44,762 nt of DNA from a virus. A program made the position numbers and the translations under genes. How positions within the stretch are numbered: position 1 is the stretch's first letter; every line of letters starts with the position of its first letter. Below are positions 41,167 to 44,749 of the stretch, in pieces. Location: positions 1 through 44,762 of IMG/VR virus record IMGVR_UViG_3300042516_005278. One strand, 5' to 3'. Under the pieces are notes generated by a model. That model did not search any database. It was not told the origin of the DNA and saw only the letters and a program-made list of their open reading frames with translations.

Positions 41167-43749
41167 TTACCTCATCATCCCCAGCGTTTCTATTTTTGAC
41201 CTCATCCCCTTTGTAGAAGCACTAAAACTTGGTGGTCTTGAAGTGGATGGTTTGCTACCACTTCCTCTTCTACCATTCATTCCACCTCCAGCAACTACAA
41301 CTTTTGGTTTTGGTTTTACTGGAGGATTTACTGGTTTTCTTCTATTCAATTCTGCTTGCCTTTTTGCAATAGTTGCTTGAGTTGCCCCTCTTGCTTTTAA
41401 TGACGCAATAGATCCTCTTGCTGCTTCGTCATATTTCTTTCTCGCATTTTCAGCATCAATATCTTTATATGCTCCAGGATTTATCATTCTTCCGAGTGCT
41501 TCAAGTGGATTGCTTGTTCCCGTTCCTGCTTGAGGACCTCTCACATAAACTAACTTACCACCTCTCATTGCCTTATATCCAACAAAAGGTCTTCCCCTAT
41601 CGTCACTCATAATTTGCGTTTTGGGTGCATCTTTAAAGGACTGATCTTTTAATCCATAACCGCCCATAATTTTTCCACCTTTCAATCCAGCAAGTCTTCT
41701 TTTATTTGCTTCTTGTTGTAAGAATTGTAGTCTTTCAGTTTCTACCCCCCCATCCATAAATTGTCCCATAGGACCAGATTGCAATTTCTGTACTCTTTTT
41801 GTCTGTTCTTCAATTTGTTTTTTTAATTCAGCATTAGAAAGATTTCCAAAACCAATTCCCATTTTGTCATATAAATCTCCCACAGCAGCCTGAACTTGAG
41901 GTTTAAATATTTCAGCCAAACCCAATAGAACACTACCGACAATACCACCTCTTCCACCACGACCACCAGGTACATTCATATTAGTTCTTATTTGCTGTAT
42001 CTCTGGAACTGAAAGACCAGCAGTTACTCCACTTCTAACAAGTCCTCCACCAGTATAAGGAACAATAGCACGACTTGCTGGTATTGGTTGTCTTACGTTT
42101 TGTGCTGCTTTGGAAAAATAATCTGCAGGAAGATTACTAAATTGACCTCTTAAATTTGATTTTGGTTTGTTTAATCTTGGCAGATTTTCGGCATATCTTG
42201 GAGCAGTTTTTGCATCCATATCAAACTTCTTCGCCAAGTCATCAAGTCCTGCAGCTGCTCTAGAACTTTGAGTAAATGATTGTGGATTATTAACTGCTTT
42301 TACTTTATCTGCTACAGATTGGCGAATAGCATCAAGAGCATCATCAGCACCGTGATGTCCCTGAAATATTCTTTCGTAAATATTTTCTCCACCGACCATT
42401 TTTGCAAAATCAGGTACTCCATTTAATTTTTTAAACGCTTTAAATAAATCCTCCTCTGTTCCAAATTGCCTAAAAACACGCGCAGCACGTCTAAGAGTAT
42501 CAACATCAGGATTTGCTCCATAACTAGAAGCAAGAGGTATATCACCAATCATACCGCCACCTTGAGCATAAACACTTTCATTCTTAAAGGTGGGTTTATT
42601 AGTTCCGCCACCAGCAGCATTCATTGCCTCAAAAGTTTCAACTCCATATTTACGAACAGCACCTGCAGAAATAACAAATTCACCATCACTCAACCAAGCA
42701 GGAATTTTATCTACTCCTTTTTCTCCAGTTACAAGTCCACTAAAGTAATTTCTAAAACCACCAAGCATACCAGAAAGATTAAATCCACCACCAGAAAATC
42801 TTGGAACACTTATAGACCCACCACCAGCACGTTGTTCAACTTTCTGCTCCTCACCACTAAATGCTCTCTGCGCTAATTGAGTTGCTGCATATCCTCCTAC
42901 AGCAACTGCAGCAGCAGTCCTTGGATTACTTTTAGCAAATCTTAAAAGAGCAGGTATTGCTTTTGCAAGTTTTGCAATTCCAGATAAAGCAATTTTTGTT
43001 AAGACTCTAACACTCTTTCCAAACTTTGTTCCAAATAAAATAAATCCACCAAGAAGTGCTGGTCCCCAATCACCCAAGAACCTAATAATAGATTTTACTT
43101 TATCAGCATTCTCTGGATTACCTAACCACTCAACGAGTTTATATACTATTCTTCCAAGTATGACAGTCGTGAAAAATTGAAGTATTCTATCGAGTAAAGA
43201 TTTAACAGGTGCTATTATTTTCTCTGCTGTTTTCTTTAATCCTTCAAATCTTTTTTCAAGTTTACTTTCAGCAAGACCTCTCTTTTCTTGCTCCGCTTTT
43301 CTTTTACTATAAGCAGATGCATCATCATCTATTTTCTTTTGTGTAGTAAGTGTATCTGCAACTGAAGACATATGCTTAACAATTGCAGAAATATTTTCCT
43401 CTATTCCTCCACCAACTTTTTGGGTAACTCCAGCATACTTTTGAAGTGTCCCGGATGGAGATCTTACAAGAGCGTTTCCACGAGGTCCATTTATCCCACC
43501 ACCAACTGTTGGTAATAGACCTTTTTTCGAAGAGACAATTGACGATTTTGCTGCTTTTGTACTTACAATTTTATCAACAAACTTTTCAAAACTTATCTTA
43601 TTTTTTCTTTTAGAAAATCCTTCTTTTAATTCTTCTTTAGATAATTTTTGCCCACCAACAGTATTCTCCGTGAGGAGTTCATTTAGGTAATATTCATACC
43701 TATTCTTACCAAAAAAACTAGAAGCACTTATTGCTTTAGAAGTGGGCAT
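41167..43749 (-). CDS. Tape-measure-like protein, 860 aa
   Basis: N-terminal helical part (EYYLNELLTENTVGGQKLSK, then a 120-180 coiled-coil-like stretch with KKIDDDASAYSKRKAEQEKR), hydrophobic helices near 185-300 (FFTTVILGRIVYKLVEWLGN, GPALLGGFILFG, TAAAVAVGGYAATQLAQRAF), and the motif DKIPAWLSDGEFVISAGAV with KYGVETFEAMNAAGGG at residues 346-382. That motif is a hallmark of phage tape-measure proteins. The gene lies directly after gp26 and the 62-residue ORF, the place where tape-measure genes sit in tailed phages. Its first 14 bases overlap the end of that ORF, so expression is coupled. Confidence 0.78.
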   Translation of the reverse strand: MPTSKAISASSFFGKNRYEYYLNELLTENTVGGQKLSKEELKEGFSKRKNKISFEKFVDKIVSTKAAKSSIVSSKKGLLPTVGGGINGPRGNALVRSPSGTLQKYAGVTQKVGGGIEENISAIVKHMSSVADTLTTQKKIDDDASAYSKRKAEQEKRGLAESKLEKRFEGLKKTAEKIIAPVKSLLDRILQFFTTVILGRIVYKLVEWLGNPENADKVKSIIRFLGDWGPALLGGFILFGTKFGKSVRVLTKIALSGIAKLAKAIPALLRFAKSNPRTAAAVAVGGYAATQLAQRAFSGEEQKVEQRAGGGSISVPRFSGGGFNLSGMLGGFRNYFSGLVTGEKGVDKIPAWLSDGEFVISAGAVRKYGVETFEAMNAAGGGTNKPTFKNESVYAQGGGMIGDIPLASSYGANPDVDTLRRAARVFRQFGTEEDLFKAFKKLNGVPDFAKMVGGENIYERIFQGHHGADDALDAIRQSVADKVKAVNNPQSFTQSSRAAAGLDDLAKKFDMDAKTAPRYAENLPRLNKPKSNLRGQFSNLPADYFSKAAQNVRQPIPASRAIVPYTGGGLVRSGVTAGLSVPEIQQIRTNMNVPGGRGGRGGIVGSVLLGLAEIFKPQVQAAVGDLYDKMGIGFGNLSNAELKKQIEEQTKRVQKLQSGPMGQFMDGGVETERLQFLQQEANKRRLAGLKGGKIMGGYGLKDQSFKDAPKTQIMSDDRGRPFVGYKAMRGGKLVYVRGPQAGTGTSNPLEALGRMINPGAYKDIDAENARKKYDEAARGSIASLKARGATQATIAKRQAELNRRKPVNPPVKPKPKVVVAGGGMNGRRGSGSKPSTSRPPSFSASTKGMRSKIETLGMMR

Positions 43750-43924
43750 TGTTGATTTGCTGTTTTTGTTTTAACTCTTCTTCCTCAAGATGTTGTTGTA
43801 ATAATGCAACATAGATATCCCTCTCCCAAGGAATCATATTTTCAATCTCCCATAGTGAATATTTATGGTACTGCATTAGAGAAAAATTAAGTTTGAAGTA
43901 ATTTTCCAGATCCATATGGATCAT
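43736..43924 (-). CDS. Small tail-assembly ORF, likely frameshift extension of gp26, 62 aa
   Basis: MIHMDLENYFKLNFSLMQYH then KYSLWEIENMIPWERDIYVA and LLQQHLEEEELKQKQ: a helical, acidic-ended protein like the T part of the G/GT tail-assembly chaperones of other phages. It is in the -1 frame relative to gp26, begins three bases beyond the gp26 stop, and the frame stays open back through the slippery site at 43933-43939. If the ribosome slips, a fusion of about 303 residues forms. It ends 14 bases inside the tape-measure gene. The stand-alone ATG is also usable. The chaperone role is inference. Confidence 0.75.
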   Translation of the reverse strand: MIHMDLENYFKLNFSLMQYHKYSLWEIENMIPWERDIYVALLQQHLEEEELKQKQQINNAHF

Positions 43925-43926
43925 AC

Positions 43927-44646
43927 TTATACGAAAAAACTTGCTAACCCTTCTAAAACAACTTCACTTTCAATTTCAGTTACTGGATTTTTCACTTTAA
44001 TTTTGTGAGAAAGTTTTGGCATCGTTTCAAAAAACTTTTCAATATCTTTAAATTGAGAAGAATTCATTGATTCCAAAAAGTCAGACATCTCTTTTTTAGT
44101 TACGTCTGCAGAGGTCCAAACTTCTTCTTCAGTAAAAATTTTATCAATACAAGATGCAATCAATTCAAAAGATTTGTCCATTGCATTCTTGTCACCAAAA
44201 TCAAAATTATTCTTAATAAATTGGTCTAATGATGGATACTTCATTTCCATCATAATAGAATTATCAAGTTTAATTCTGTTCGTATGCTTTTTATCTTTTT
44301 GAACTTGAATGTCATCCAGATTAATTTTTACAGGAACTTGCGTCTCACCATCATCGGGACAAATAATATTGACTTCAAGTTCTTCACCAACAGACTTACC
44401 GCGAATATTTAAAAACAAATATTCAATATCAAAAGTAGGAAGAGACTCTACTTTAATATTTTTCGTAAGAATACAGTTCGTGATAACCGTTTTAATTGCT
44501 GTTGTAATTTGCTTTGTATCTTCGCTCTCTAAAGCAATTACAAGCAACTTTTCTTCTTTGACCAAAAATGGTCTATATTGAATTGTGTCTCCAATTGAAG
44601 GCAATTCAAGTTCATAAGTTGGTGTAGAAATCTTAGGTAAAGGCAT
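43927..44646 (-). CDS. gp26: Baseplate hub/tail-assembly protein gp26, 239 aa
   Basis: Matches the T4 gp26 family pattern: PTYELELPSIGDTIQYRPFL, VKEEKLLVIALESEDTKQIT, FDIEYLFLNIRGKSVGEELE, then a Cys-containing strand (VNIICPDDGETQVPVKINLD). The C-terminus is rich in acidic helices (FTEEEVWTSADVTKKEMSDF) and ends LASFFV. In T4 gp26 is needed for baseplate hub formation; given its partner ORF and the following tape-measure gene, a chaperone role like lambda G is plausible. A slippery T TTT TTC precedes the stop by one codon. A GCTAAATA motif lies 28 bases upstream as a possible late promoter. Confidence 0.87.
   Translation of the reverse strand: MPLPKISTPTYELELPSIGDTIQYRPFLVKEEKLLVIALESEDTKQITTAIKTVITNCILTKNIKVESLPTFDIEYLFLNIRGKSVGEELEVNIICPDDGETQVPVKINLDDIQVQKDKKHTNRIKLDNSIMMEMKYPSLDQFIKNNFDFGDKNAMDKSFELIASCIDKIFTEEEVWTSADVTKKEMSDFLESMNSSQFKDIEKFFETMPKLSHKIKVKNPVTEIESEVVLEGLASFFV
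43933..43939 (-). promoter_or_regulatory. Candidate -1 ribosomal frameshift site T_TTT_TTC
   Basis: In the gp26 frame the codons read AGT TTT TTC GTA TAA. The heptamer T TTT TTC is a classical X_XXY_YYZ slippery sequence. A shift by -1 continues CGT ATA AGT ATG, into the 62-residue ORF with no stop. A downstream stimulatory structure is not evident by eye. Confidence 0.7.
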
Positions 44647-44673: not shown

Positions 44674-44681
44674 TATTTAGC
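44674..44681 (-). promoter_or_regulatory. Variant late-promoter motif GCTAAATA
   Basis: Minus-strand GCTAAATA, one mismatch from NATAAATA, 27 bases before gp26. Shares CTAAATA with two other sites in the window; may be the promoter of the tail-core operon. Confidence 0.35.
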
Positions 44682-44724
44682 GTAGATGGACAGAAGAAAA
44701 AGTGCCATGCACAATAATCTAAGA

Positions 44725-44749
44725 GGGTCATTGAGACCCCCCCCTTTTT
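44725..44749. terminator. Possible terminator-like hairpin near the right edge
   Basis: GGGTC pairs with GACCC around a five-base loop; the plus strand then has five further C residues and five T residues. The T run suits the plus strand, but no plus-strand gene ends here; the minus strand has a poor T tract. The region 44647-44762 holds no convincing gene. Confidence 0.3.

Follow-up and report, generated by a model that had tools for sequence, protein, structure and literature searches.

Conserved slippery heptamer at the end of gene 26 and predicted -1 ribosomal frameshifting into gene 51 in T4-like cyanophages

Among T4-like phages, frameshifting in the tail-assembly chaperone genes is reportedly retained in several groups, and T4 itself is said to carry genes 26 and 51 separately. 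The chaperones of T4-like phages, both those made by frameshifting and those that are not, are reportedly the subject of Vladimirov, Gautam and Davidson (Virology 2022, 566:9-15). PMC12846349 cites Vladimirov et al. (2022) for poly-T slippery signals in the TAC-N genes of T4-like phages, and PMC10885494 cites the same work for T4-like phages with separate short and long genes. PMC12846349 also describes the TAC locus of Vandenendeviridae and Andersonviridae, where the -1 frame is conserved, TAC-N ends in a poly-T slip motif and annotation usually shows two genes. In lambda G/GT, treated by Xu, Hendrix and Duda (2004), and in P2 E/E+E' the short ORF ends in a -1 slip site, a second ORF continues in the -1 frame with the tape-measure gene directly after it, and the long form is a minor fusion.

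The window analyzed here is the whole 44,762-nt stretch of IMG/VR record IMGVR_UViG_3300042516_005278, and all features of the junction lie on its minus strand. Its gene 26 likewise ends in a predicted -1 slip site, and it is by layout that we liken the locus to lambda and P2; a minor fusion is proposed here too. In the T4-like phages proper the long form is a separate gene, whereas the window would produce it, if at all, from one locus. A preliminary description of this DNA knew of no account of frameshifting for cyanophage gp26. That it is undescribed is probably wrong, as the T4-like chaperones were reported on in 2022 (Vladimirov et al., as cited in PMC12846349 and PMC10885494); an explicit account of cyanophage gp26/gp51 frameshifting was not found in the open literature searched. 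The predicted frameshift is a well-supported case of an already known principle and not a new principle, and the Shine-Dalgarno (SD)-like element and covarying hairpin described below may be new details. The features are:

43927..44646, minus strand: gene 26, predicted to encode the short tail-assembly chaperone (TAC-N) of 239 aa (PF12322, E 5e-75; phrog_150, E 1e-78)
43933..43939, minus strand: slippery heptamer T TTT TTC, separated from the gp26 stop by a single sense codon (conservation, synonymous constraint)
43927..43929, minus strand: TAA stop of the unshifted product
43736..43933, minus strand: -1 extension after a slip, gp51 domain (TAC-C) (phrog_634, E 1e-27; open in 147/147 relatives)
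43948..43953, minus strand: SD-like GAAGGG, candidate stimulator, ending 8 nt upstream of the heptamer (anti-SD pairing, synonymous bias)
43909..43922, minus strand: candidate stimulatory hairpin GATCC-ATAT-GGATC, 5 bp, from 10 nt after the heptamer (covariation)
41167..43749, minus strand: 860-aa ORF, tape-measure-like, sharing 14 nt at its start with the end of the gp51 frame (weak PHROG matches)
44674..44680, minus strand: late-promoter-like CTAAATA, 34 nt upstream of gp26 (NTAAATA in relatives)

We consider it highly probable that programmed -1 ribosomal frameshifting at the end of gp26 yields a 303-residue gp26-gp51 fusion. The 3' end of gp26 reads AGT TTT TTC GTA TAA, with the heptamer exactly where the preliminary description had placed it, and the protein of the short form would end in ...ASFFV. 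By count, TTTTTTC is neither enriched nor depleted in the AT-rich window (21 occurrences vs 27.6 +/- 5.7 expected by chance), so the word alone is no proof, and its count was dropped as evidence. The case depends on position, phase and conservation: by the counts given below, the conserved place, phase and codon choice of the heptamer in relatives exceed what chance would give.

After a slip, the -1 extension would begin by reading the C of the heptamer a second time, and the 62-aa ORF running from the ATG at 43924 to 43736 makes up the main part of the gp51 domain. As the preliminary description had it, the -1 frame runs without a stop into this ORF. The predicted fusion, estimated there at about 303 residues, comes to exactly that length, reads ...ASFF-RIS-MIHMDLE... 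and includes the whole 62-residue ORF. Read across the slip it is ...ASFF-RISMIHMDLENYF..., and the junction peptide of the window type is ...LASFFR | ISMIHMDLENYFK.

PF12322, phrog_150, phrog_634 and hhalign show gp26 to be homologous to T4 gp26, and the extension to T4 gp51. In relatives, gp26 is annotated as baseplate hub subunit or hub assembly chaperone, and the phrog_634 family matched by the 62-residue ORF is named 'baseplate hub assembly catalyst'. A further match of this ORF, to the C-terminal end of phrog_150, the gp26 profile, suggests that the gp26 and gp51 parts are joined in some members of the family. A T4-like gp26 aligned to the gp26 of the window (hhalign, E 1e-19), both ending at the same FF. 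A T4-like gp51, a separate gene of 250 residues, aligned with the whole fusion across the junction (hhalign, E 6e-11; residues 7-245 to profile columns 13-281). Thus the separate T4-like gene encodes what the window would make by slippage. NCBIfam has no model for gp26, gp51 or the downstream ORF, and PDB sequence searches with gp26, as a single sequence and as a profile, returned nothing relevant.

AlphaFold2 gave a good model of gp26 (pLDDT 85). Its structural neighbors among viral proteins are of the gp26 type, apart from a single gp51 (Acinetobacter phage ZZ1, E 1e-5). A structural likeness to lambda-type chaperones, which the preliminary description had proposed to look for, received a hint only: the HK97 chaperone 2ob9 ranked third in the PDB, but at non-significant values (E 0.72, probability 0.21).

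Conservation of the heptamer in homologues had been named beforehand as a check to be made. Viral contigs and named phages supplied 206 different junctions, and in 203 of them a correctly phased TTTTTTC or TTTTTTT lies close to where gp26 ends. It is missing from three, which belong to a Serratia phage of Ackermannviridae, Vibrio phage D533 and an Escherichia T4-like phage. The site is thereby kept over a very broad range of relatives. No stop between the slip site and the gp51 core was found in the -1 frame among the heptamer-bearing homologues examined. Heptamer and phase are unchanged in lineages whose gp26 stop lies at differing distances (0 to 8 codons) after the heptamer, including a few where it has shifted several codons downstream. 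Reading by eye showed the heptamer in two further Straboviridae, Vibrio phage nt-1 and Aeromonas phage Aswh_1, the latter in a record marked unverified; Aswh_1 has no Met in the -1 frame from FF to the gp51 core. In Methylophilales phage Melnitz, assigned to Kyanoviridae, T TTT TTT stands immediately before the stop. One scan of the viral contigs with Vibrio gp26 as the query found no relatives. These findings support the G/GT-type layout first proposed for gp26 and the 62-residue ORF.

Several individual junctions deserve mention. The 0-frame stop of L213, L232 and L247 lies 8 codons past an unchanged heptamer, so that gp26 and gp51 overlap. Serratia phage Kevin (L089) and Vibrio phage D533 (L090), both without the heptamer, still have the gp51-like sequences DLISYFEMCDTLKRHGYSMFEIS and LLDYFELADECGKMGISYTEYN, respectively, in the -1 frame. 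The gp51 of Aeromonas phage Aswh_1 (L262) and of S-PRM1 (L083) is unannotated despite an intact -1 frame.

Codon and frame tests were done on 147 relatives with less than 85% nucleotide identity. The first Phe codon of the heptamer is TTT in 147/147 of these, which were drawn from the heptamer-bearing junctions with only 3/206 excluded for lacking it; elsewhere in gp26, TTT makes up 66% of Phe codons. The second Phe codon is TTC in 141 and TTT in 6. The codon preceding FF ends in T in all 147, whether it encodes Ser, Asp, Asn, Ala, Gly, His or Thr. Among 45 columns with conserved residues, the two FF columns are the most conserved in codon choice. Probabilities from such tests are overstated, the relatives being treated as independent. 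In every one of the 147 relatives the -1 frame stays open for 56-73 codons beyond the slip site, and in none do the +1 or readthrough frames reach 45 codons or more.

Eight nt upstream of the heptamer lies an SD-like element with the consensus GARGG(R). Its predicted pairing with the anti-SD sequence averages about -6.5 kcal/mol over the 147 relatives, compared with 0.16 (sd 2.4) elsewhere in gp26. The codons of the element specify a conserved Glu-Gly, and codon choice goes beyond what the protein needs. At the element GAG encodes Glu in 92/131 cases, compared with 33% elsewhere (p 2e-17), and the third base of the Gly codons is a purine in 86/131, compared with 39% elsewhere (p 2e-8). Synonymous randomization gives weaker pairing than that observed (-5.31 vs -6.49 observed, p 5e-8). 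GAAGGG is likely to stimulate slippage in the window.

The candidate hairpin was analyzed in the clade of the window, which comprises 65 relatives; the other 82 lie outside it. When all column pairs in 75 nt were scanned across the 65 relatives, two pairs of the stem ranked first and second for excess Watson-Crick pairing. Changes on both sides of the stem were found in 37 cells vs 10.3 +/- 5.4 in shuffles, and slid versions of the stem paired less than the true register in this clade. Along non-overlapping tree paths, the four stem pairs summed gave 19 full compensations, 12 changes to wobble and 11 breaks. RNAalifold, unprompted, returned exactly the GATCC/GGATC stem (-3.8 vs about 0 in column shuffles). 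Folding of the whole junction of the window alone was weakly more stable than shuffles (z -1.4), so the case for the hairpin is one of covariation and not of energy. A universal stimulator was rejected since the stem is not kept in the 82 relatives outside the clade, which makes it probably a lineage-specific one that would act on the ribosome. RNAalifold gave no consensus clearly better than shuffles in three other groups, and an Rfam search of the junction gave nothing meaningful.

Two other explanations of the junction have to be weighed. We think it very unlikely that gp51 is a separate 62-aa protein made by termination and reinitiation at the ATG at 43924, even though this ATG lies 2 nt past the gp26 stop, public records mostly annotate gp51 as its own gene, and in 106/147 relatives an ATG of the -1 frame precedes the gp51 core. 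Because the gp51 frame of the window itself has ATGs, separate reinitiation would be possible there. However, in 31/147 relatives the -1 frame offers no ATG, GTG or TTG ahead of the gp51 core, and in another 10 it offers only GTG or TTG. In those 31 the second ORF would be expressed with no start of its own, so that slippage is the only evident route and gp51 as an ordinary separate gene is unworkable. Furthermore, 94 of the 106 relatives with an ATG lack an SD-like motif before it, and the conserved SD-like element, about 26 nt from the ATG of the window, is too far away to be the ribosome-binding site of gp51. Reinitiation would also leave unexplained both the synonymous constraint on the heptamer and the single-chain T4-like gp51.

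The fusion might instead be encoded by mRNAs that arise when the polymerase, and not the ribosome, slips on the T6 tract. The run of six T ahead of C, and the TTTTTTT of 6/147 relatives, are what such an explanation would draw on, but a run of six T is short for polymerase slippage. The phase of T TTT TTC relative to the codons never changes, and both the SD-like element and the downstream stem would be signals to ribosomes. We therefore regard transcriptional slippage as extremely improbable.

With ribosomal frameshifting as the preferred explanation, most ribosomes would terminate gp26 at the TAA one codon past T TTT TTC. A minority, with tRNA-Phe in the P and A sites, would slip back one base, aided by contact of the upstream SD-like element with 16S rRNA and, in the clade of the window, also by the hairpin 10 nt downstream. 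These ribosomes would continue through gp51 to give the 303-residue fusion. Together, the short (TAC-N) and long (TAC-NC) forms would then act as tail-assembly chaperones for the tape-measure protein, like lambda G/GT. Sequence comparison shows the heptamer, the open -1 frame, the conservation of both, the synonymous constraint and the covariation; the slippage and its efficiency, the action of the two stimulators and the chaperone role are what we infer.

The genes for gp26 and gp51 are directly upstream of the 860-aa ORF, whose matches to tape-measure PHROGs are weak and partly Gly-rich (E about 1e-6). In phiM12, a nearby downstream ORF is annotated as similar to tape-measure proteins. On the other side of the locus, CTAAATA at 44674-44680 is probably a late promoter of the T4-like type. 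In 117/145 relatives the 60 nt upstream of gp26 contain NTAAATA, mostly at 26-36 nt, vs 4.8% in control windows. Terminator-like G+C-rich hairpins for both strands lie at 44721-44743, just upstream of gp26.

If the frameshift is real, the annotation of hundreds of cyanophage genomes would be corrected, as gp26 and gp51 are now listed separately and gp51 is sometimes missed. The 'baseplate hub subunit' and the 'hub assembly catalyst' would thereby be tied to the tail-assembly chaperones. The diverged natural sites, with and without a stem, would form a ready comparative set for bacterial -1 frameshift signals.

The slip site differs in sequence from those of the systems it resembles. P2 E/E+E' is compared alongside lambda, whose heptamer is GGGAAAG where that of the window is TTTTTTC, and the motif of Vandenendeviridae and Andersonviridae, which are other phage families, is GTTTTT. 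The -1 signal of E. coli dnaX consists of an upstream SD-like element, an X XXY YYZ heptamer and a downstream stem. We somewhat favor the view that T4-like cyanophages have a three-part signal of this kind, made up of the SD-like element under synonymous selection, an invariant T TTT TT(C/T) and a lineage-limited downstream stem, in which case a fixed heptamer would be combined with changing stimulators. The window and dnaX share the three-part layout, but in another gene and with another heptamer, and the stem of the window is short and clade-specific.
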